Source: a virus. From it: a DNA stretch of 21,818 nt. Shown here in pieces: positions 5,837-20,385 of the stretch. A program made the translations under genes and the position numbers. Position 1 is the stretch's first letter. Each line of letters opens with the position of its first letter. Under the pieces are notes generated by a model, which was not told the origin of the DNA, ran no database searches, and saw nothing but the letters and a program-made list of their open reading frames with translations. The DNA lies in IMG/VR virus record IMGVR_UViG_3300021963_000740, positions 1 to 21,818 of that record; one strand, 5' to 3'.

Positions 5837-8326
5837 ATGAGCATTGAACAATCCTTGAGCCAAGCCCCATTGGGCCTGCAAGATATCGAGCTTGATGACA
5901 CGCCCGCAGTTGAGATTGAGATTGTCAATCCCGAGGGTGTCAAGATTGGAATGGACGGCATGGAGATTGATCTCATGCCTGAGACTGAAGAAGAAGACTT
6001 CTCAGACAACCTTGCCGAGTACATGGATGACAGCGAACTCCAAAAGATTGCCAGTGATCTGATTGAGATGGTTGATACTGACGTTAACTCCCGCAAAGAC
6101 TGGGTGGAGATGTATGTCAAAGGTCTAGATGTTTTGGGGATGAAATATGAAGAGAGAACAGAACCTTGGCTCGGTGCGTGTGGTGTCTTTTCCACCGTAC
6201 TCACCGAAGCGGCAGTCAGGTTTCAAAGTGAGACTATTATTGAAACTTTTCCAGCGCAAGGGCCGGTTAAAACAGAAATTATCGGCGCAATTGACAAGCT
6301 TAAAGAGGAAGCAGCAGAGCGTGTCAAAGATGACATGAATTACAGACTGACAGAAGGAATGCCTGAGTATCGACCAGAGCATGAACGCCTTCTGTATTCT
6401 CTAGGTCTGGCTGGCGCAGCTTTCAAAAAGGTCTACTACGATCCTTCTTTGGGCCGTCAAGCTTCTATTTTCATCCCCGCAGAAGATGTAATCATTCCTT
6501 ACGGCGCTTCTAGCGCCATGACCTCAGAGCGTGTGACTCACATCATGCGCAAAACAAAGAATGACATCCGCAAGCTTCAAGTTTCGGGTTTCTACCTAGA
6601 CAAGGAACTTGGCGAACCTCTTCAGTTCTACACCGACGTAGAGAAAAAGAAAGCCGAAGATCAGGGCTACAACCTCAATGATGATGACCGCTATCAGATC
6701 TATGAGATCCACGTAGATTACGACCTGCCCGGCTATGAAGATGAAGACGGGATTGCTCTGCCTTACGTCATCACCTTAGAACGAGGAACGACTGAGATTC
6801 TCTCCATCCGCAGAAACTGGGATGAAGATGACAAACACAAACTCAAGCGCCAGCACTTTGTCCAGTACACATACGTTCCCGGCTTTGGAGCTTATGGCCT
6901 AGGTTTGATTCACCTAATCGGTGGATACGCTCGTGCGGGTACATCTATCATTCGTCAACTCGTGGATGCGGGAACTCTTTCAAACCTTCCCGGAGGTTTG
7001 AAGACCCGAGGACTGCGTATCAAAGGAGATGACACTCCCATCCAGCCGGGTGAGTTCCGTGATGTGGACGTGCCAAGCGGATCAGTCAAAGAGAACATTA
7101 TGGCCCTGCCATACAAGGAACCTTCACAGGTTCTTTTGGCTCTCTTGAACCAGATCACAGACGAGGGCAGAAGACTCGGATCAATCGCAGATATGAACAT
7201 CAGCGATATGTCTGCCAACTCTCCCGTGGGTACAACTTTAGCGTTACTTGAGCGCCAGCTTAAGACTATGTCTGCGGTGCAGGCTCGTGTTCATTATTCA
7301 ATGAAGCAAGAGTTTAAACTGCTCAAAGAAATCATCCGTGACTACATGCCGGAAGATTACGACTACACCCCAGTATTCGGCACTCCCCAAGCCAAACGGG
7401 CTGACTATGACATGGTGGATGTTATCCCCGTGTCAGATCCCAACTCGGCGACGATGGCTCAAAGGATCATGCAGTATCAAGCTGTAATCCAGTTAGCTCA
7501 AGGCGCTCCACAGATCTATAACCTTCCTTTGCTGCACCGCCAGATGATTGAGGTTCTGGGAGTAAAGAACGCAGACAAGCTTGTACCTATTGACGATGAC
7601 ATGACACCACGGGATCCAATCTCAGAGAACATGTCGTTCTTGACGGGTAAACCCACCAAAGCATTCATTTACCAAGATCACGACGCACACATTGCTGTAC
7701 ATACATCAATGATGCAGGATCCGATGGTAATGGGTCAAATGGGACAAAACCCAATGGCTCAACAGATGCAGGCTGCAATCATGGCCCACGTAGCTGAACA
7801 CATCGCCTTCCAGTACAGAACCAAGATTGAGCAACGCCTTGGCGCTACTCTTCCTAGCCCAGATACTGAGATGCCCGAGGATGTGGAAGTCCAATTGTCA
7901 AAGCTCGTTGCTCAGGCTGCAAAACAATTGTTGGACATCAACAAGAACCAAGCAGCACAACAACAAGCCCAGCAACAGATGCAGGATCCTGTTGTACAAA
8001 TGCAACAAGCAGAACTTCAGATCAAACAGCAAGACGCTCAAACCAAAGCTCAGAAAGTTCAAGGCGACTTGGCTATCAAGCAGGCGGAGCTTCAACTCAA
8101 AATGGCGCAGATGCAGGGCGCACAAGGGGAAGACCCTGCCGTGGCTGCACAAAAAGCGCAGCAAGACATTGCAATCGATGCCATGAAGAAACAAGCAGAG
8201 ATGCGAATGGCTGAACAACAGCACCAGCAACAGTTGGAACACAACCAACAAACGCAGGATCTACAGGCTAAACAACAACTTCTTCAGATGCTTTTAAACG
8301 CGAAGAACCAACCGAAAGGTGAATGA
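5837..8326 (+). CDS. Portal protein
   Basis: An 829-residue protein in the canonical slot after the large terminase. Stretches such as WLGACGVFSTVLTEA, HERLLYSLGLAGAAFKKVYY, GRQASIFIPAEDVIIPYGAS and LIRQ-like RQLVDAGTLSNLPGG resemble portal proteins of environmental short-tailed phages. The portal is a dodecameric ring through which DNA enters and leaves the head. From about residue 706 the protein becomes glutamine- and methionine-rich with long heptad runs (QQQAQQQMQ, AELQIKQQ), a probable coiled coil that could form an internal barrel as in phage P22 portal. Large size (P22 gp1 is about 725 residues) fits this. AGGAA precedes the ATG by 6 nt. The end overlaps the next ATG (ATGATG). Confidence 0.85.
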   Translation: MSIEQSLSQAPLGLQDIELDDTPAVEIEIVNPEGVKIGMDGMEIDLMPETEEEDFSDNLAEYMDDSELQKIASDLIEMVDTDVNSRKDWVEMYVKGLDVLGMKYEERTEPWLGACGVFSTVLTEAAVRFQSETIIETFPAQGPVKTEIIGAIDKLKEEAAERVKDDMNYRLTEGMPEYRPEHERLLYSLGLAGAAFKKVYYDPSLGRQASIFIPAEDVIIPYGASSAMTSERVTHIMRKTKNDIRKLQVSGFYLDKELGEPLQFYTDVEKKKAEDQGYNLNDDDRYQIYEIHVDYDLPGYEDEDGIALPYVITLERGTTEILSIRRNWDEDDKHKLKRQHFVQYTYVPGFGAYGLGLIHLIGGYARAGTSIIRQLVDAGTLSNLPGGLKTRGLRIKGDDTPIQPGEFRDVDVPSGSVKENIMALPYKEPSQVLLALLNQITDEGRRLGSIADMNISDMSANSPVGTTLALLERQLKTMSAVQARVHYSMKQEFKLLKEIIRDYMPEDYDYTPVFGTPQAKRADYDMVDVIPVSDPNSATMAQRIMQYQAVIQLAQGAPQIYNLPLLHRQMIEVLGVKNADKLVPIDDDMTPRDPISENMSFLTGKPTKAFIYQDHDAHIAVHTSMMQDPMVMGQMGQNPMAQQMQAAIMAHVAEHIAFQYRTKIEQRLGATLPSPDTEMPEDVEVQLSKLVAQAAKQLLDINKNQAAQQQAQQQMQDPVVQMQQAELQIKQQDAQTKAQKVQGDLAIKQAELQLKMAQMQGAQGEDPAVAAQKAQQDIAIDAMKKQAEMRMAEQQHQQQLEHNQQTQDLQAKQQLLQMLLNAKNQPKGE

Positions 8327-10969: not shown

Positions 10970-11878
10970 ATGGCTATTTCACGCGCACAACTGCTCAAAG
11001 AATTACTCCCCGGCTTGAACGCTTTGTTCGGTCTTGAGTACGCTAAATACGGCGAAGAGCATAAAGAAATCTACGAAACAGAGACATCTGAGCGTAGCTT
11101 TGAAGAAGAGACAAAGTTGTCTGGCTTCGGTCAAGCACCAGTCAAAAACGAGGGTTCTGCCATCGCTTATGACAATGCACAAGAAGCATGGACTGCACGT
11201 TACACCCACGAAACCATTGCGATGGGCTTCTCCATCACAGAGGAAGCTGTGGAAGATAACTTGTATGACAGCCTGTCTTCACGCTACACCAAGGCTTTGG
11301 CCCGTGGTATGGCTTACACCAAGCAGGTCAAAGCTGCTGCAATCTTGAACAACGGCTTTGCCGGTGGCCCCACTTATGGTGACGGTCAAGTTTTGTTCTC
11401 GACATCACATCCTTTGGTCTCCGGTGGCGTTAACAGCAACACACCATCTACCGCTGCCGACTTGAATGAAACATCGTTGGAAAACGCTGTTATTCAAATC
11501 GCAGCTTGGACAGATGAGCGTAGCTTGCTGATCGCTGCAAAGCCTAGGAAGTTGATTGTTCCTCCTTCTTTGATGTTCGTTGCTACACGTTTGCTGGAAA
11601 CCGAACTCCGTGTTTCTACTGCTGACAATGACATCAACGCATTGAAGAACAACGGTTCTATTCCTGAAGGCTATACTGTTAACCACTACCTGACAGACAC
11701 CAATGCTTGGTTCCTGTGTACGGACGTGCCTAACGGTTTGAAGCACTTTGTGCGTACCCCCATGTCTACAGGCATGGACGGTGACTTTGACACAGGTAAC
11801 GTTCGTTACAAAGCCCGTGAGCGTTACAGCTTCGGCGTGTCAGATCCTTTGGGCGTGTTCGGTTCACCCGGCGCTTAA
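10970..11878 (+). CDS. Major capsid protein, phage Mu gpT-like
   Basis: A 302-residue protein that matches the Mu-like prophage major head subunit gpT family in length (gpT is about 305 residues) and in sequence features: the start MAISRAQLLKELLPGLNALF, the glutamate-rich segment HKEIYETETSERSFEEET, GFGQAPVKNEG, YTHETIAMGFSITEEAVED, DGQVLFSTSHPLVSGG and the C-terminal RERYSFGVSDP. It forms the HK97-fold shell. No N-terminal prosequence is visible, and the scaffold is separate, so processing is not expected. A strong ribosome binding site (AAGGAG) precedes it, and a UUCG terminator follows directly, consistent with very high expression. Confidence 0.9.
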   Translation: MAISRAQLLKELLPGLNALFGLEYAKYGEEHKEIYETETSERSFEEETKLSGFGQAPVKNEGSAIAYDNAQEAWTARYTHETIAMGFSITEEAVEDNLYDSLSSRYTKALARGMAYTKQVKAAAILNNGFAGGPTYGDGQVLFSTSHPLVSGGVNSNTPSTAADLNETSLENAVIQIAAWTDERSLLIAAKPRKLIVPPSLMFVATRLLETELRVSTADNDINALKNNGSIPEGYTVNHYLTDTNAWFLCTDVPNGLKHFVRTPMSTGMDGDFDTGNVRYKARERYSFGVSDPLGVFGSPGA

Positions 11879-12036: not shown

Positions 12037-12579
12037 ATGGCACGTACCACGTTTCAAGGCCCAGTTCGTTCATTGGGCGGCATTTATCAACAAGGCCCAG
12101 CAACTATTGTTGAAATCACAGCAAGCACCACACTAAGCCCCGAAGCTCATGGCGGTCGCATTATTTCTGTTGGTGGCACATTGGCTGCTGCACTAACTTT
12201 GACATTGCCAGCAATCAACACATCAGCAAACTCAGTTACATCTGGCCCCGGTCAAGACCCAAGCACAGCCAACAATGAAGGCGTGGTTTACACAATCTGG
12301 GTTCCTACAACAATTGCCACTAGCTCATTGAAGATTGGCACTAACGGCACTGATAAGTACGTTGGCACAATTGTGATGAACGACGCTGATACTGATGGCG
12401 CGGCATTGGTTGGCTTTAACGCCGCCGCTGCTAATGACTTCATTAACTTGAACGGTACTACCACTGGTGGTGTTGCAGGTTCATGGGTTCAAATCGTTGC
12501 CATTGCCGCTAACAAGTACATGGTCACTGGCATGGTGTTGGGCACAGGCACTGTTGCCACGCCATTCGCTAACTCCTAA
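12037..12579 (+). CDS. Probable virion surface (decoration or head-fibre) protein
   Basis: A 180-residue, beta-rich, low-charge protein starting MARTTFQGPVRSLGGIYQQG. The rest is a run of strands and Gly/Ser/Thr/Ala-rich loops (EAHGGRIISVGGT, LTLTLPAINTSANS, VYTIWVPTTIATSSLKIG, GSWVQIVAIAANKYMVTG). The TFQGPVRSLGG-type N-terminus followed by a beta domain recalls small decoration or fibre proteins of environmental phages. It is isolated from its neighbours by a terminator on each side, indicating an independently and strongly expressed transcript. AAGGAA lies 8 nt upstream. Function is inferred from composition and position. Confidence 0.6.
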   Translation: MARTTFQGPVRSLGGIYQQGPATIVEITASTTLSPEAHGGRIISVGGTLAAALTLTLPAINTSANSVTSGPGQDPSTANNEGVVYTIWVPTTIATSSLKIGTNGTDKYVGTIVMNDADTDGAALVGFNAAAANDFINLNGTTTGGVAGSWVQIVAIAANKYMVTGMVLGTGTVATPFANS

Positions 12580-12586
12580 TCAACCC

Positions 12587-12608
12587 AAGGGGCTTCGGCC
12601 CCTTTTTT
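12587..12608 (+). terminator. Rho-independent terminator after the 180-aa gene
   Basis: AAGGGGC (12587-12593) and GCCCCTT (12598-12604) close a TTCG tetraloop and run into six T (12603-12608). It is the same UUCG design as the terminator after the capsid gene. Confidence 0.9.
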
Positions 12609-12622
12609 AAAGGAGATTGATT

Positions 12623-12892
12623 ATGATGCAAACAGACGTAATAGGTAAGGATTGCGCTGCTGGCGCAACCACTACCGTATATGCGGGACGCGCACGTTTT
12701 AAGGGTATTTGGTATAGCTCTTCTGGCGCTTCTACTATTGCCGTTAAAGATGGCGCTACCACTTTGTTTACTTTCACTGTCGCAGGTCAAGCCTCGGATG
12801 ACATCTGGATTCCGGGCGAAGGCGTATTGTGTGAAACAAGTCTAGTAATCACTACCGGAGCGGGCCTGACCGCAGTGGTGTTCTATGGCTAA
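12623..12892 (+). CDS. Small beta-rich protein, 89 aa
   Basis: An 89-residue beta-rich protein (RARFKGIWYSSSGASTIAVK, TLFTFTVAGQASDDIWIPGE, SLVITTGAGLTAVVFYG). It has the alternating hydrophobic pattern of a small beta sandwich and few charges, so a virion surface or tail-related part is plausible. ATG 12623 is preferred because AGGAG (12611-12615) lies 7 nt upstream; a TTG six bases earlier is in frame but less likely. Its stop codon overlaps the ATG of the next gene. I do not recognise the family with certainty. Confidence 0.7.
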   Translation: MMQTDVIGKDCAAGATTTVYAGRARFKGIWYSSSGASTIAVKDGATTLFTFTVAGQASDDIWIPGEGVLCETSLVITTGAGLTAVVFYG

Positions 12893-13130
12893 GTCACCAG
12901 CATGGCAGAGGAAAGAAGGCAAGTCCGAGAAGGGCGGTTTAAACGCCAAGGGACGAGCCTCCGCGAAAGCGCAAGGTATGAACTTGAAGGCTCCCCAGCC
13001 CGAAGGCGGCTCCCGGCGCGACTCTTTCTGTGCGAGGATGGGCGGCATGAAAAAGAAGCTAACGAGTGCAAAAACAGCAAACGATCCGGATTCACGCATC
13101 AATAAAGCTTTGAGGGCATGGAATTGTTAG
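12885..13130 (+). CDS. Small basic protein, resembles DUF6321
   Basis: An 81-residue, strongly basic protein: MAKSPAWQRKEGKSEKGGLN, AKGRASAKAQG, SRRDSFCARMGGMKKKLTSA, then SRINKALRAWNC. The SPAWQRKEGK-GGLNAKGRAS and SF-ARMGGMK blocks are conserved in aquatic phage proteins that I recall as DUF6321, of unknown function. The arginine- and lysine-rich character suggests nucleic acid binding or packing in the virion. The start overlaps the previous stop by 8 nt, and its own 3' end overlaps the next gene by 13 nt, so translation is coupled. It is the first of a run of small basic genes. Confidence 0.75.
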   Translation: MAKSPAWQRKEGKSEKGGLNAKGRASAKAQGMNLKAPQPEGGSRRDSFCARMGGMKKKLTSAKTANDPDSRINKALRAWNC

Positions 13131-13363
13131 ATCTAAACACAGCATGGTCAGCAATCCTGTCTTTGGTGATTGGCTTGCTTGGCTACATGATGAATGAAAA
13201 GTTCAGGGAACTGGCTCGTGTCACGATCCTGTTGAACAAAACCCGTGAGGAGGTTGCTCGTGATAACGTTACTCAAGCAGAAGTGGATCGCATTACGAAC
13301 CACATTGACCAACGCTTTAACAAGCTTGAAGCAAAAATTGACCAACTTATTCAAAAGGGGTGA
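13118..13363 (+). CDS. Small membrane-anchored coiled-coil protein
   Basis: An 81-residue protein with one N-terminal hydrophobic segment (about residues 9-25, AWSAILSLVIGLLGYMM), a short charged turn, then an amphipathic helix with heptads (REEVARDNVTQAEVDRITNH, NKLEAKIDQLIQKG). This is the layout of small inner-membrane phage proteins; a holin-like or spanin-like role, or a tail-associated protein, are possibilities, but no lysis gene is adjacent. It starts in an overlap of 13 nt with the basic protein upstream, with GAGG before the ATG. Confidence 0.7.
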   Translation: MELLDLNTAWSAILSLVIGLLGYMMNEKFRELARVTILLNKTREEVARDNVTQAEVDRITNHIDQRFNKLEAKIDQLIQKG

Positions 13364-13369
13364 GTAATC

Positions 13370-13825
13370 ATGGCTGGACTTGCTGCACTTGATCTTCTTG
13401 GTAGAGGCGTTAAAGCCGGAGCAAAAGCTTTGGATTATCAAATCCCAAAAGATGTTGAGCCGTTCCTTACTCCAGTTAGCTCTGCTAAAAGTTATTTAGC
13501 AAACAAACTTGAAGAGGCTTTAAATTTACCAAAAGATACAGTTTCTGCTGTAGCAGATCCTAAAGGATTTGTAGCTGGTCTTGCTAAAGACACTGCTAGA
13601 GATTACTTCCAAGACAGGGGAGAAATCCCTGTAGAAGATCGCAGTTTCTCATCGTCAAATGGCGGTTATGACAAATTAGCTCTTAACACCTACGCAGATG
13701 ACGATATAAATGCGTTTAAACGTGGTGGCAAGGTTAAATCTGCGCCAAAATCTAAAGCAAGCACTGCCTCACGTCGTGGTGATGGTATTGCGCAGCGAGG
13801 CAGGACAAAAGGTAGGTATCTGTAA
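13370..13825 (+). CDS. Small phage protein with C-terminal RGDGIAQRGRTKG motif
   Basis: A 151-residue protein. The N-terminal 85 residues are helical and Ala/Lys/Asp-rich (AGLAALDLLGRGVKAGAKAL, EEALNLPKDTVSAVADPKGF). The middle (YDKLALNTYADDDINAFKRG) is acidic, and from FKRGGKVKSAPKS to the end it is very basic, closing with RRGDGIAQRGRTKG. The N-terminus may be amphipathic and membrane-seeking. The end belongs to a motif shared with at least three other genes in this window. Shine-Dalgarno AGGGG precedes the ATG, and its stop overlaps the next start (TAATG). Its role is unknown; a minor virion or ejection protein is a guess. Confidence 0.75.
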   Translation: MAGLAALDLLGRGVKAGAKALDYQIPKDVEPFLTPVSSAKSYLANKLEEALNLPKDTVSAVADPKGFVAGLAKDTARDYFQDRGEIPVEDRSFSSSNGGYDKLALNTYADDDINAFKRGGKVKSAPKSKASTASRRGDGIAQRGRTKGRYL

Positions 13826-14271
13826 TGCCAAGCACAAGCGCAAAACAACGGAATTTCATGGCGGCAGTAGCGCATAATCCTGCGTTTGCCAAGAAAGCGG
13901 GAGTCCCACAATCTGTGGGTAAGGACTTTAATCAGGCTGATAAAGGCCGTAAATTTTCTAAAGGTGGCGATATGGCTGAATCTAAAGCAATGGCAAAAAA
14001 AGAAATTTCTTTTATGAAGAAAAAGGGTGCGCCCGCATCCATGATTAAGCATGAAAAAGCTGAGTACGGCATGAAAAAAGGTGGCATTGCTACTTCTTTA
14101 AAAGCTCATGCTGCGGCCCCTGCTTCTAAAGCGCATGGCATGAAGAGTGGCGGCATGGCTGCATCTAAAATGGGTGCAGTAAAAGTTGGTAAAACAACAG
14201 ATGGTGTTGCGTCTAAGGGTAAAACCAAAGGCACAATGATTGCAATGAAAAAAGGCGGCAGAGCCTGCTAA
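13825..14271 (+). CDS. Lysine-rich phage protein, apparent fusion of two small modules
   Basis: A 148-residue, very basic protein (many K, few acidic residues). Residues 1-48, MPSTSAKQRNFMAAVAHNPA followed by FAKKAGVPQSVGKDF, form one module common in aquatic phage proteins. Residues about 50-88, MAESKAMAKKEISFMKKKGA then PASMIKHEKAEYGMKKGG, form a second module that I recall as a separate small protein in other phages. The C-terminus has DGVASKGKTKG and ends KKGGRAC. Fusion of the two is inference from memory. It overlaps the preceding stop codon and has a good ribosome binding site for the next gene. Function unknown; nucleic acid binding or packaging with DNA is plausible. Confidence 0.75.
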   Translation: MPSTSAKQRNFMAAVAHNPAFAKKAGVPQSVGKDFNQADKGRKFSKGGDMAESKAMAKKEISFMKKKGAPASMIKHEKAEYGMKKGGIATSLKAHAAAPASKAHGMKSGGMAASKMGAVKVGKTTDGVASKGKTKGTMIAMKKGGRAC

Positions 14272-14280
14272 GGAGTTAAC

Positions 14281-14712
14281 ATGAAAAGACGTTATGACGA
14301 TGGCGGTGAAGTAGATGCAATGCAAGCAGCCAATGCTTCTGATGAAGCAATGGATATTGCGGATTCCATGAGGCGTGGCGCTCCCGGCACTTCTGAAACA
14401 GTACGGGCCACTCCCAAGCCTGCGCGTAAGGCTGCTCCAAAAGCTGCTCCTAAATCAGAAGCGCGTAAAGCTGCGGCAGAAACTGATGAGACCAAAATGT
14501 CTTTGGCTGAACGTGCAAAGATGAGCCGTGAACGTGCTAGAGCGGGTAGCGGCCCAACCGATACACGTTCTGTTAGTGATCGCATTCGTTCTGCTATGGG
14601 CATGAAGAGTGGTGGCTCTGTGGGTTCAGCTTCCCGTCGTGCGGATGGTTGTGCCACTAAAGGCAAGACCAAGGGCACTATGGTCAAAATGAACTACGGC
14701 GGAAAGTGCTGA
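14281..14712 (+). CDS. Basic phage protein with ADGCATKGKTKG motif
   Basis: A 143-residue protein: an acidic, helical N-terminus (GGEVDAMQAANASDEAMDIA), a proline/alanine/lysine-rich linker (PKPARKAAPKAAPKSEARKA), a charged helix (MSLAERAKMSRERARAGSG), then RRADGCATKGKTKGTMV and the end NYGGKC. The C-terminal motif and the terminal GG-C are shared with the protein upstream, so these two are paralogous at the C-terminus. AAGGAG lies 6 nt before the ATG. No structural family is recognised. Confidence 0.75.
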   Translation: MKRRYDDGGEVDAMQAANASDEAMDIADSMRRGAPGTSETVRATPKPARKAAPKAAPKSEARKAAAETDETKMSLAERAKMSRERARAGSGPTDTRSVSDRIRSAMGMKSGGSVGSASRRADGCATKGKTKGTMVKMNYGGKC

Positions 14713-14713
14713 G

Positions 14714-14989
14714 ATGATGGCAAGCCGTGGGATGGGCAAAATAATGTCCAGCAAAATGCCCAAAGGCAAGCGTAAAGCTCGCCGGGATGACACTGACTTC
14801 ACGCAGTATGCTGAAGGCGGGAAAGTAAATGCTGCTGGTAATTACACTAAGCCAGATCTGCGCAAGCGGATTGTGTCTCAGGTAAAAGCCGCCTCTACCC
14901 ACGGAACAGATGCAGGCCAATGGTCAGCCCGTAAAGCACAACTTGTTGCTAAAAAGTACAAAGAAGCTGGTGGAGGGTATAGAGATTGA
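14714..14989 (+). CDS. Small basic protein, resembles DUF5872
   Basis: A 91-residue protein. After a Met- and Lys-rich start, residues 48-88 carry NYTKPDLRKRIVSQVKAAST, then GQWSARKAQLVAKKYKEAGG and GYRD. From memory this GQWSARKAQ-KYK-AGGGY block is DUF5872, a short helical domain seen in aquatic phages and in some large eukaryotic viruses. Two ATG codons are adjacent (14714 and 14717). It begins 1 nt after the previous stop and its own stop overlaps the TTG start of the next gene. Function unknown; the helix and the positive charge suit nucleic acid or protein binding. Confidence 0.7.
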   Translation: MMASRGMGKIMSSKMPKGKRKARRDDTDFTQYAEGGKVNAAGNYTKPDLRKRIVSQVKAASTHGTDAGQWSARKAQLVAKKYKEAGGGYRD

Positions 14990-15219
14990 AAGCTCCTCAA
15001 AAATCGCTTAAAGATTGGGGCGACCAGAAATGGCGCACCAAGTCTGGAAAGCCGTCGAGTAAGACGGGGGAGCGGTATTTGCCCGAAGCGGCTATCAAGT
15101 CTTTGTCATCATCTGAGTACGCAGCTACAACCAAAGCCAAACGTGCAGGCAAGGCGGCGGGCAAACAGTTTGTAGCCCAACCTAAAACGATAGCAAAGAA
15201 AACGGCAGGATTTAGATGA
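14986..15219 (+). CDS. Conserved basic protein with TKSGKPSSKTGERYLPEAAI core
   Basis: A 77-residue, highly basic protein. It is nearly entirely one conserved block, with SLKDWGDQKWRTKSGKPSSK, TGERYLPEAAIKSLSSSEYA and KAAGKQFVAQPKTIAKKT. I recall near-identical small proteins in aquatic phages and giant viruses, often beside the GQWSARKAQ protein, as here. Their function is unknown to me. The start is TTG at 14986, inside the preceding stop (TTGA), with GGAGGG 8 nt upstream; this is the only non-ATG start that is clearly needed in the window. Its stop overlaps the connector ATG. Confidence 0.75.
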   Translation: MKAPQKSLKDWGDQKWRTKSGKPSSKTGERYLPEAAIKSLSSSEYAATTKAKRAGKAAGKQFVAQPKTIAKKTAGFR

Positions 15220-16142
15220 CCACTACCGGCTCAACCCTCTTCAATATGGATTTCACGGAGATTGCCGAGGAAGCGTGGGAGAGGGCTGGGCGGGAGATGC
15301 GTTCAGGCTACGATCTGCGTACAGCACGTAGATCAATGAACCTAATGACCATTGAGTGGCAGAACAAAGGTATCAACATGTGGACGATGGAGCAGGGGAT
15401 CATTAACCTGACTCCCGGCCTAGCTACATACGCTCTACCGACAGACACCATTGATTTGCTGGAGCATGTGATCCGCACAGGATCTAACACTTCCTCTACG
15501 CAAGCTGATCTAACCATCACACGCATTAGTGTTTCCACGTATGCAACAATCCCAAACAAACTCAGCCAAGCAAGACCAATCCAAGTTTGGATTCAACGTC
15601 TTTCTGGGCAAACTAATCCAACGACTGCGGTCTTGGATGGAGCCATTACCTCCACGGACACCACGATCACGCTTAACACGGTGGTTGGGTTAGCCGGAGC
15701 AGGCTTTATCCGTTTAAACAGTGAAGACATCTATTACACCTACATCTCAGGGAATACCCTAGGTGGTGTGTACCGTGGTCAGAACAATACGACAGCGGCT
15801 TCTCAAGCAGATGGCACAGCAGTCTTCGTCCCGCAGCTTCCTGCCGTTACTGTGTGGCCTACACCTGATAACAGCACCCCTTACCAATTTGTGTACTGGC
15901 GCTTAAGGCGAGTGCAGGATGCGGGTGCTGGTGTCGAGACATCTGACATGAACTTCCGCTTCCTACCGTGCTTGGTAGCTGGGCTGGCTTATCACATCGC
16001 AATTAAGACACCTGACCTAATGCCTCGCATTCAGATGCTTAAGCAGATTTACGATGAAACCTTTGAGATTGCTGCTGGTGAAGACCGTGAGAAAGCTGCT
16101 GTAAGGTTTGTACCTCGCCAGATGTTTATTGGTAACACATAA
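15216..16142 (+). CDS. Head-tail adaptor (connector) protein, gp4-like
   Basis: A 308-residue protein resembling the head-completion and tail-accessory proteins of short-tailed phages (P22 gp4-like; by eye). The helical N-terminus (AEEAWERAGREMRSGYDLRT, ARRSMNLMTIEWQNKGINMW) and YALPTDTIDLLEHVIR match this family. The C-terminal helices (FLPCLVAGLAYHIAIKTPDL, MLKQIYDETFEIA) complete the fold. Residues about 133-206 (TTAVLDGAITSTDTTITLNT, EDIYYTYISGNTLGGVYRGQ) look like a beta domain inserted between these parts. It would bind the portal and close the head. It starts at the overlap with the basic protein (ATGA) and ends overlapping the next ATG. Confidence 0.7.
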   Translation: MTTTGSTLFNMDFTEIAEEAWERAGREMRSGYDLRTARRSMNLMTIEWQNKGINMWTMEQGIINLTPGLATYALPTDTIDLLEHVIRTGSNTSSTQADLTITRISVSTYATIPNKLSQARPIQVWIQRLSGQTNPTTAVLDGAITSTDTTITLNTVVGLAGAGFIRLNSEDIYYTYISGNTLGGVYRGQNNTTAASQADGTAVFVPQLPAVTVWPTPDNSTPYQFVYWRLRRVQDAGAGVETSDMNFRFLPCLVAGLAYHIAIKTPDLMPRIQMLKQIYDETFEIAAGEDREKAAVRFVPRQMFIGNT

Positions 16143-16525
16143 TGGGAAATAGATTTGCATCCGGCAAGATAGCGATTGCTGAATGTGATCGTTGTGGACA
16201 GCAGTACCAACTCAAGAAGCTTAAGACTGAGATTATTAAGCAGCGTTTGTATCAGTTGTTAGTGTGTCCCGAGTGCTGGGATCCGGATCAGCCGCAGTTG
16301 ATGTTAGGTACATTTCCTGTAGATGATCCACAGGCTTTACGTAATCCACGTAAAGACACAACATATGTGACTTCTGGTGTAAACGCTAATGGCAACCTAT
16401 CCGGTGGCTCAAGAGACATTCAGTGGGGCTGGCAGCCGGTTGGCGGGGCTAGTTTAAATGATGCAGGATTAACACCAAACTACTTGGTGGCAACGACATT
16501 TGTTGGTACAGTAACGATATCTTAA
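16142..16525 (+). CDS. Zinc-ribbon structural protein, 127 aa
   Basis: The N-terminal half has two CxxC pairs, CDRC (C15, C18) and CPEC (C42, C45), separated by 23 residues, a standard four-cysteine zinc ribbon. The second half has DDPQALRNPRKDT and a Gly/Asn-rich end (WQPVGGASLNDAGLTPNYLV). Such a protein is found between the two connector genes in aquatic phages as I recall, so a head or tail joint role is probable. A DNA-contacting part of the connector is a second possibility. It starts at the TAATG overlap with the previous gene. No enzyme motif is visible. Confidence 0.7.
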   Translation: MGNRFASGKIAIAECDRCGQQYQLKKLKTEIIKQRLYQLLVCPECWDPDQPQLMLGTFPVDDPQALRNPRKDTTYVTSGVNANGNLSGGSRDIQWGWQPVGGASLNDAGLTPNYLVATTFVGTVTIS

Positions 16526-16536
16526 GGAGTTTAAAC

Positions 16537-16725
16537 ATGGCATATACAAAATCAGCAGACGGAGTTGCTAAAAAGGGTAAGACTGATGTTCAAGTCTTTC
16601 CTACCAGCGGCCCTTCCCAGAAAGAAATGATGGGTGGAAAAGGTAAAGGTAAGGGTAAAACCAACTCTGACATGAAGACTATGGGTCGTAACTTGGCAAA
16701 GATTGCCAATCAGAAACGAGGCTAA
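16537..16725 (+). CDS. Small basic protein with SADGVAKKGKT motif
   Basis: A 62-residue lysine-rich protein starting MAYTKSADGVAKKGKTDVQV. The motif DGVAKKGKT at the N-terminus matches the C-terminal motif of the genes at 13825 and 14281. A glycine-lysine run (GGKGKGKGKTNS) and MGRNLAKIANQKRG follow. AAGGAG lies directly before the ATG, with the palindrome GTTTAAAC between them (16529-16536). Function unknown; very basic character suggests nucleic acid or lipid contact. Confidence 0.7.
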   Translation: MAYTKSADGVAKKGKTDVQVFPTSGPSQKEMMGGKGKGKGKTNSDMKTMGRNLAKIANQKRG

Positions 16726-16727
16726 CT

Positions 16728-16991
16728 ATGGCTACATACAGTAAAAAAATGATGGGCAAAGAAGTTGGCGATGCCAAGGTCTATGCTACACCCCACACCA
16801 TGACTGGTAAAGTTGTTAAAGCTACTGACAACCCCGGTTCTGGCCCCGACCATAGCGATGCCGGAACAGTCAACATGGCTGTAGGCAACGTGTATCGCCG
16901 CTCACAACCAGCGGCTAAGACAACTGGTATCAAAATGCGTGGTGCAGGTGCGGCTACCAAAGGCGTTATGAGCAGAGGCCCAATGGCATGA
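16728..16991 (+). CDS. Small protein with RGAGAATKG ending
   Basis: An 87-residue protein (MATYSKKMMGKEVGDAKVYA, HTMTGKVVKATDNPGSGPDH). It ends KMRGAGAATKGVMSRGPM, a diverged form of the (R/K)xDGxAxKG motif seen in the neighbours. It starts 2 nt after the previous gene's stop and overlaps the second connector start by 4 nt. The middle is Gly/Asn-rich and probably flexible. No family recognised; proximity to both connectors suggests a minor virion protein. Confidence 0.65.
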   Translation: MATYSKKMMGKEVGDAKVYATPHTMTGKVVKATDNPGSGPDHSDAGTVNMAVGNVYRRSQPAAKTTGIKMRGAGAATKGVMSRGPMA

Positions 16992-18978: not shown

Positions 18979-20385
18979 ATGTTCGGTATAGCCCCGTTTG
19001 CAGGTGCTCCGTTCTCCTCGCTTGCGGGGGGAAATGTTACTGTTGCCCTTACCGGTGTATCCTCATCGGGGTCGGTAGGATCAGTCTCGGAAATCAATAA
19101 TCCGACTGAAAACGGGGTAGTTGCCAGCGGTTTTGTAGGCACTGTTACAGTCGCAGAACGTAGTATTGCCCTGACAGGTGTTTCTGCTTCTGGTTCAGCG
19201 GGCACTGTTACCGAAACAAACAGCTTACCTGAGAATGGTGTTGTAGCCACAGGCTCTGTTGGCTCTGTAACTTCTAGTCGCACAGTCGCAATAACAGGCG
19301 TTTCAGCCGCTGGTGCTGTTGGCACTGCTTCAGTAGACGCAAGGTCTATTGCAATAACAGGCGTGGCGGCTTCTGCAAACGTAGGCAGTGTTGTTGCTAC
19401 GCCGCTGATTGGGTTAACAAGCGTCACTGCTTTTGGTACTGTTGGTGGAGTAGACGAGACTAACTTACCTGAGATTCAAGAAGTCCATGCTGATGGATAT
19501 GCTGGCACAGTTATCCCAACGTATGCAATTGCTCTGACTGGTGTATCGGCAAATGGTTCTGTTGGTACAGTTGTTGCAGATGTCGTTCAGAGCGTAGATA
19601 TAACGGGCGTTGAGGCCGCAGGTAATGTTGGCACAGTAACAGTTGCTGAACGTTTTATTGCCCTTACAGGTGTATCTGCCAGCGGCCAAGTTGGTGATGT
19701 TACAGAGGTAAACAATCCTACCGAAGAGGGTGTAATTGCCATAGGCTCGGTTGGTACAGTTGGTGTTGGCCCACATCAGTTTTCGTTATCTGGCGTAGAA
19801 GCCAGCGGAAATGCTGGTACAGCTAATGCGGCGCTGACAATAGCTTTGACGGGCGTTTCAGCTTCTGGCGCAGTTGGTTCTGTCGGGCTAGTTAAAACTC
19901 AAACATTAACAGGCGTTGAAGCTGTAGGATCGGTTGGATCTGTAGAGTTTGCCAAAGTTGCGGCCTTGACTGGTGTGGCGGCTACGGGTGAAGTTGGTAC
20001 AGTTACGCAGAGTAGCTCTGAAGATGAAGATGGCGTAGTTGCTACCGGCTCTGTTGGAACTACCATCCCAGTTACAACTGTTGCTTTGGTTGGTGTAGGC
20101 GGCGATGGTTTTGTTGGTACAGTTACGGGTGAAGCTGTTTATACGCAAGCACTTACGGGTGTTTCAGCTACTGGGTCGGTTGGAAGTACGGTTGGGCAAC
20201 GTCTGATTGCAGTTACTGGCAATCAAGCGATGGGCGCTGTTGGTGATATGGGCGTATTTTTCTGGTCATTAATTGATGACACAGAGGATGCAAACTGGCA
20301 AAATATAGACAATACACAAACGTCAGGCTGGACAGTTGTTGATGATGAACAAACGCCGGGGTGGGTCATTGTTGACACAGTCTGA
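18979..20385 (+). CDS. Repeat-rich tail-like protein with C-terminal tryptophan repeats
   Basis: A 468-residue protein made almost entirely of a repeated unit of the form (G)VxAxGxVGxV with short linkers: I count 20 copies. About every third to fifth linker contains an acidic insert (EINNPTEN, ETNSLPEN, ETNLPEIQ, EVNNPTEE, SSSEDEDG). The last 42 residues change to FFWSLIDDTED and three W-x-x-(I/V)-D units (NWQNIDNTQTS, GWTVVDDEQTP, GWVIVDTV). The start MFGIAPFAGAPFSSLAGGN is plausible because similar MFG-x-x-PF starts are known in phage proteins, but no Shine-Dalgarno is seen; the hairpin above lies there. It has beta-repeat character and is probably a fibre-like adhesin or tail decoration. 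Confidence 0.75.
   Translation: MFGIAPFAGAPFSSLAGGNVTVALTGVSSSGSVGSVSEINNPTENGVVASGFVGTVTVAERSIALTGVSASGSAGTVTETNSLPENGVVATGSVGSVTSSRTVAITGVSAAGAVGTASVDARSIAITGVAASANVGSVVATPLIGLTSVTAFGTVGGVDETNLPEIQEVHADGYAGTVIPTYAIALTGVSANGSVGTVVADVVQSVDITGVEAAGNVGTVTVAERFIALTGVSASGQVGDVTEVNNPTEEGVIAIGSVGTVGVGPHQFSLSGVEASGNAGTANAALTIALTGVSASGAVGSVGLVKTQTLTGVEAVGSVGSVEFAKVAALTGVAATGEVGTVTQSSSEDEDGVVATGSVGTTIPVTTVALVGVGGDGFVGTVTGEAVYTQALTGVSATGSVGSTVGQRLIAVTGNQAMGAVGDMGVFFWSLIDDTEDANWQNIDNTQTSGWTVVDDEQTPGWVIVDTV
19033..20253 (+). repeat. Tandem coding repeats, 20 copies of a GVxAxGxVG unit
   Basis: Units are typically 18-24 codons apart. Conserved core examples: GVSASGSAGTV, GVVATGSVGSV, GVEAAGNVGTV, GVAATGEVGTV. 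Three copies deviate clearly (SVTAFGTVGGV, EVHADGYAGTV, GNQAMGAVGDM). Codon use varies between copies, so they are old or diverged copies, not a recent DNA slippage. Confidence 0.8.

Follow-up and report, generated by a model that had tools for sequence, protein, structure and literature searches.

Why should several small and otherwise different virus proteins, encoded close together, share one short peptide? The question is raised by a virus record of 21,818 bases (the window), whose annotated genes lie on the + strand. Named by their start positions, those of the head part run from the small and large terminase subunits (3074, 4329) through the portal (5837), a scaffold-like protein (8927) and a possible head protein (10353) to the major capsid protein (10970). 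A run of small genes (12037 to 15219) then fills the interval up to the tail adaptor (15216), which is followed by 16142, 16537, 16728, 16988 and more tail genes. Genes 13370, 13825 and 14281 are inside this capsid-adaptor cassette and 16537 is just past the adaptor (Table 1). An earlier note on this DNA had reported a DGxAxxGKTKG-like motif in at least four small basic genes, with a diverged copy in a fifth, and had proposed that it is a transferable tag serving as a signal for virion incorporation, for DNA contact or for a binding partner.

Table 1. Tagged genes, their tags and the cassette borders in the window. Bit scores are from a tag HMM built without the window's own rows.
Feature	Position	Strand	Score	Remarks
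Major capsid protein, left cassette border	10970..11878	+		phrog_371, 1e-21
DUF6321 gene, same cassette	12885..13130	+		tag absent here, present in 19 relatives
Tagged gene 13370	13370..13825	+		151 aa; helical low-confidence model; no family match
C-terminal tag region of gene 13370-13825	13718..13822	+	37.2 bits	KRGGKV...SRRGDGIAQRGRTKGRYL; short form, 4 residues past core; core 13781-13813; from core start 13781, DGIAQRGRTKGRYL, the final 14 residues of the protein
Tagged gene 13825	13825..14271	+		148 aa; N-terminal helical domain; tag predicted disordered
C-terminal tag of gene 13825-14271	14200..14268	+	13.5 bits	long form DGVASKGKTKGTMIAMKKGGRAC; terminal Cys; kept in family alignment; core start 14200, then GTMIAMKKGGRAC
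Tagged gene 14281	14281..14712	+		143 aa; no family match
C-terminal tag of gene 14281-14712	14602..14709	+	49.7 bits	long form MKSGGSVGSASRRADGCATKGKTKGTMVKMNYGGKC; terminal Cys; core start 14644, then GTMVKMNYGGKC
Tail adaptor, right cassette border	15216..16142	+		relatives' counterpart annotated adaptor
N-terminal diverged tag of gene 16537-16725	16558..16584	+	21.6 bits	SADGVAKKGKT; core = residues 8-16, start 16558; homologues also N-terminal
Sister motif, C-terminus of gene 16728-16991	16938..16988	+	1.3 bits	RGAGAATKG; similar shape; not a member by HMM score

Are these matches real? All five strings quoted in the note were located at the genes to which it assigned them. With the tag HMM, genes 14281, 13370, 16537 and 13825 all score above the best of 8,700 shuffled window proteins (9.2 bits), so that at least four genes do carry the motif and low-complexity composition does not explain it. 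Gene 16728 falls under the shuffled maximum with the same HMM; RGAGAATKG is thus not a diverged copy, as had been supposed, but belongs to a separate sister motif. Two of the proteins do end in GG-(x)C, as GGRAC and GGKC. The description of the genes as small and basic was only partly right: the median net charge is +8 for tag regions and +3 for the bodies that carry them, but 26% of body groups are not net positive, and the 13370 protein minus its last 30 residues has a net charge of -2.

The consensus of 415 distinct tags from relatives is K-x-GG..SASKRA-DG[ICV]A-x-[KR]-GKT-[KR]-G-[KR]-[MFI]-[VIC], i.e., a K-rich hinge with GG, SASKRA-like residues, and then the core D-G-[I/C/V]-A-x-[K/R]-G-K-T-[K/R]-G. 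D occurs in 98% of tags, A3 in 96%, K7 in 99%, and G1, G6 and T8 in all; the search pattern imposes part of this fixedness, but it leaves free the flanks, the tails and the choice among permitted residues. Where Gly, Ala, Thr and Lys are invariant the third codon base varies, and the four window cores use differing codons for identical residues. Since codons vary while residues are fixed, selection acts at the protein level. A DNA- or RNA-level element was rejected because third codon positions are free at invariant residues; antisense matches numbered 2/203.

The tag has a short form, in which 220 tags stop four residues past the core (GKMV, GKMC, GRMV, GRFV), and a long form, in which about 124 run 11-14 residues past it (GTMIKM..GGKAC). 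Most tags are near the C-terminus; only the 16537 family has it at the N-terminus, and a few proteins (L108, L149, L090) have tandem or internal copies. A degron or SsrA-like C-terminal turnover tag would suit the mostly extreme C-terminal location and the short hydrophobic ends, but is close to excluded by the N-terminal, internal and tandem copies, by the extra residues of the long form, and by the fact that the conserved part is an internal core. For the 13825 protein, AlphaFold places a helical domain at the N-terminus with confidence (blocks at 75-89) but predicts disorder in the tag (45-54), and it gave only a poor model for 13370; neither model assigns the tag a structure. This bears on another reading, that of a P-loop-like phosphate or nucleotide site, which is prompted by the fit of 412 of the 415 tags to [AG]x4GK[ST] (the Walker A-type GxxxxGK[ST]). 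The strand before and the helix after such a loop were not found in the region, which is predicted to be disordered, and as only four residues follow the core in the 220 short tags there is no room for the helix. The bodies, moreover, have no Walker B motif or NTPase fold, and we regard a P-loop, like a degron, as close to excluded.

How widely is the tag distributed? The 13825 protein alone matched 515 IMG/VR relatives, of which 80 were kept, and a degenerate DNA pattern for the core matched at least 120 stretches. Homologues of window genes were present in all but two of the tag loci examined at that stage, and the full records of these two have the same capsid gene (81% identity). Among prokaryotes, searched as one genome per species (84,980 species), 12 stretches fit the broad core pattern and three are clear tags (L206, L208, L217). 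Planktothrix phage Pag-Yong1 encodes one tagged protein (UMO75986.1, annotated as 308 aa and ending SGGMIGRDGCAKRGRTKGRFI), between capsid and adaptor, and the tag HMM found no tag in the isolate or complete-genome records of HTVC023P, CRP-902 and DSL-LC04. By type, the tagged loci are 0/31 (HTVC), 0/73 (CRP), 10/40 (Pag-Yong1) and, with false positives removed, about 1/48 (DSL); the sets of the window's own type are 100% tagged but were gathered via the tag or a tagged gene. Two regex matches (L503 at 5112 and L511 at 4442) proved spurious, as they fall in a beta-rich protein and are not tags. L503 has a tag alongside a capsid type that is otherwise without one. The distribution in IMG/VR, prokaryote and isolate records places the tag in one broad phage family rather than in phages at large; the motif is not confined to one phage.

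A tblastn search of isolate phages with tags of 29 and 39 residues gave no matches, such short or low-complexity queries probably being filtered. PDB searches found no match to the tag, the capsid protein or the Pag-Yong1 tagged protein, and only weak, chance-like ones to the adaptor. The tag is undescribed in Pfam, NCBIfam, the PHROGs matches, the PDB and the literature searched; most subscription papers and preprints were outside this coverage, and an earlier description is possible.

Both borders are present in 84 loci, which together have 194 tags: 186 fall between the major-capsid and adaptor genes, seven after them and one before. In each of 18 further records of 33-66 kb, a single cluster spanning no more than about 3.5 kb takes in all the tags. 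The N-terminally tagged 16537-type gene sits just beyond the adaptor, outside the cassette. HTVC027P has few small genes between capsid and adaptor, which makes the cassette accessory, and since it and the CRP type lack the cassette, whatever is loaded by the tag would not be essential to the family.

What are the proteins that carry the tag? Stripped of it, the bodies found in relatives form 33 multi-member groups and 96 singletons, about 129 in all, in line with the claim that the carriers are otherwise different proteins; these counts are approximate because the 13825-family cluster of 188 is probably over-linked, inflated by low-complexity links. Among 122 body representatives, Pfam was convincing only for DUF6321, PHROGs added the 13825-type N-terminal domain, and PADLOC gave one weak match. 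A single match to phrog_5745 ('internal virion protein', E 0.0013 among 122 proteins) was discarded as too weak. DUF6321 (PF19846), to which gene 12885 of the window belongs (65.5 bits, against a Pfam gathering score of 28.5), ends at a WxC cysteine in 172 relatives, the window included, and continues into the tag in 19. A FastTree phylogeny of its body (at most 75 residues) has 11 changes of tag state, in which gain and loss are indistinguishable. That the tag is transferable is borne out by its unrelated bodies, by a family with and without it, by C- and N-terminal placement and by tandem copies. Recent copying of one DNA cassette gains no support from the DNA identity of short tags, which is 68% within a genome and 62.5% between genomes; as tags of one genome are only slightly more alike, they appear to be old and selected rather than recent copies.

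The bodies also turn over quickly. Close phages were compared in 171 pairs, with capsid identities of 90-99.5% and adaptor identities of 85% or more. Among tagged bodies of the 13825 family, 227 of 318 had a counterpart in the other phage; among the remaining tagged bodies only 107 of 457 did, and about three quarters of these were thus without one. The pairs are not statistically independent, and short bodies may escape BLAST. Turnover of this kind is familiar from counter-defence and host-interaction proteins, and the tag might accordingly act in the cell by binding a protein of the host or an early one of the phage (a membrane, protease, replication or inhibitor target), its clustering with head genes reflecting only a position in the late operon. 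We consider this rather unlikely: whole records have no tags in other late or early regions, PADLOC and Pfam found nothing convincing in the bodies, and the N-terminal domain of 13825 is common to proteins annotated as virion structural. That domain is also present in phiKZ 165.1 and in a Xanthomonas phage XbC2 structural protein, as well as in PHROGs and jumbo-phage proteins that are named or annotated virion structural; as far as annotation goes, this supports a virion context for the tagged proteins.

Could basicity alone account for the tag? It might be a tail that contacts DNA or RNA and condenses or neutralises packaged DNA with no specific protein partner. The charge of the tag, the K/R positions that stay K or R, and the likewise basic cassette neighbours of the tagged genes are consistent with this, and lysines of T4 internal proteins touch DNA phosphate (PMC3012670). 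It is, however, D, G, A, G and T rather than the charges that are most strictly fixed, and two correlations would be needless for non-specific DNA binding. Positions 9 and 11 show an anticorrelation of K and R (R..K 107, K..R 63, R..R 30, K..K 13; p 2.6e-14), and no short tag has Cys both at core position 2 and at C-terminal position 13 (0/77 versus 47/132; p 1.7e-9); both p-values take one tag per genome and, since relatedness is controlled only in part, are too small and overstate confidence. A DNA contact that depends on simple basicity is therefore less likely, and we judge it an unlikely alternative overall. These patterns suggest that positions 2 and 13 come close together in the bound tag, or are equivalent there, for example in a hairpin.

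The same cysteines raise the possibility that tags crosslink or zip the head-cassette proteins outside the cell, through disulfides or a metal site. A terminal Cys is present in 48% of tagged cassette proteins, against 8.8% of cassette proteins that lack the tag and 0.5% of small proteins encoded elsewhere, and the one-or-other rule of the short tags points the same way. Yet the tested positions are free of Cys in 85 of 209 distinct short tags. The function therefore cannot hinge on Cys, and crosslinking is very unlikely.

The explanation that we favor, with a probability of about one in two, is that the tag is a docking motif for a head component and loads accessory proteins into or onto the particle. 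A signal for virion incorporation is the best fit to the gene anatomy because the tags are confined to the capsid-adaptor cassette, the bodies turn over fast, and the 13825 N-terminal domain is shared as described; a binding partner would be implied. The tag would be a short linear binding motif, disordered when free and perhaps hairpin-like when bound, and all tags would dock on the same part of the head during assembly, be it the major capsid protein, the scaffold or the portal. A varying collection of small proteins, most of them accessory, would in this way be taken into or onto the particle, would be present in virions and might be delivered with the DNA. The tree of the capsid protein has eight changes of tag state and those of the adaptor, scaffold and 16142 have nine each, so that none singles out a partner. 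The tag of L503, beside a usually tag-less capsid type, and the N-terminal tag beyond the adaptor were counted against loading.

Several known systems offer a comparison. The cargo-loading peptides of encapsulins are C-terminal short linear motifs on unrelated cargo that bind the inner face of an HK97-fold shell. The tag is likewise a C-terminal short linear motif on unrelated proteins, but its sequence and shell are different, and it belongs to a phage and not to a compartment. Phage scaffolding proteins such as P22 gp8 have a basic, helical, coat-binding C-terminus and are one protein per phage. The tag, too, is basic and mostly C-terminal and might attach to coat as the head assembles; unlike the element of gp8 it is on many proteins, and the window's scaffold-like protein is without it. 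In T4 the capsid targeting sequence (CTS) is N-terminal and is cleaved by the prohead protease; Alt carries it, as do the internal proteins. The latter (IPI, IPII and IPIII) are diverse, have only the targeting sequence in common, vary fast in their bodies between relatives, and are encoded with head genes (PMC3012670). The tag shares with the CTS the use of one short peptide on diverse small proteins with fast-varying bodies, beside head genes. It differs in being mostly C-terminal (the N-terminal position that marks a CTS is absent from most tags), in its unrelated sequence and in the layout of the head genes. The best reading is that it would work like the T4 CTS without being homologous to it or a member of the CTS class.

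The sister motif, RGxG[AC]A[TV][KR]G, was found in 151 distinct cases (116 C-terminal, 34 N-terminal and one elsewhere), and 94 of 121 homologues of 16728 retain RGxGAAxKG. It is common in tag-less relatives, occurring as MAGRGMGCATRGG in DSL-type phages, and no published description of it was found. Like the tag it is terminal, lies in the same region and has a GxA-x-[KR]-G core; unlike the tag it lacks the D and the KTKG. An hhalign comparison of the two motifs (E 0.001, probability only 22%) is suggestive only, and the sister motif may represent an earlier form of the tag device.

A bolder form of the loading explanation, which we put forward tentatively and consider doubtful, is an open cargo system in which any small protein that gains the tag would be loaded into the head and delivered together with the DNA. 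The more than 100 bodies would then be a pool of interchangeable factors, the tag would be bound through a defined structured site (as the exchange of Cys between positions 2 and 13 may indicate), and the older RGxG[AC]A motif would do the same job in tag-less relatives. Among the relatives are the HTVC023P-type pelagiphages; the abundant vSAG 37-F6 has been placed in that type (PMC9599517, PMC5490008). A tag that does act as a loading signal would supply a sequence rule for predicting from genomes which dark proteins enter the particle in a widespread family of aquatic phages. It would also provide a compact, portable address for directing chosen proteins into phage heads, and a route to delivered counter-defence or takeover factors.

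Among the small cassette proteins encoded between the major capsid and tail adaptor genes, in the window and its relatives, a C-terminal cysteine is strongly enriched: it ends 48% of the tagged proteins (those carrying the DG[ICV]A-x-[KR]-GKT-[KR]-G peptide) versus 8.8% of untagged cassette proteins and 0.5% of small proteins elsewhere. WxC is the C-terminal end of DUF6321 (window 12885-13130) in nearly all relatives. Tagged and tag-less family members alike have another terminal motif, RGxG[AC]A[TV][KR]G; in phages of the DSL type it lies at the N-terminus, as MAGRGMGCATRGG.

Features and their positions
Feature	Position	PHROG
N-terminal part of 13825	window 13825-13960	
Two further small basic cassette proteins	window 14714-14989, 14986-15219	17747, 14910
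RGxG[AC]A[TV][KR]G sites	window 16728-16991; L082, L270, L394, L423, L463-L528	
Long repetitive reading frame	window 18979-20385	

The two further basic proteins are untagged and kept in many relatives, and their PHROG families are of unknown function. In one relative (L394) the cassette also encodes a 359-residue protein (6746-7825) that, judged by eye, resembles Rieske-type oxygenases. phiKZ 165.1 shares the N-terminal domain of 13825, and large proteins of jumbo phages that bear a virion-structural annotation carry this domain at their N-terminus. The repetitive frame holds many copies of a repeat of type ALTGVSASGSVGTV, similar to the repeats of CRP-902 gp53, and has a WxxxDDTQ-like C-terminal part.

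The Walker A signature [AG]x4GK[ST] is matched by 412 of the 415 distinct tags, a match that is a trap for annotation by pattern.
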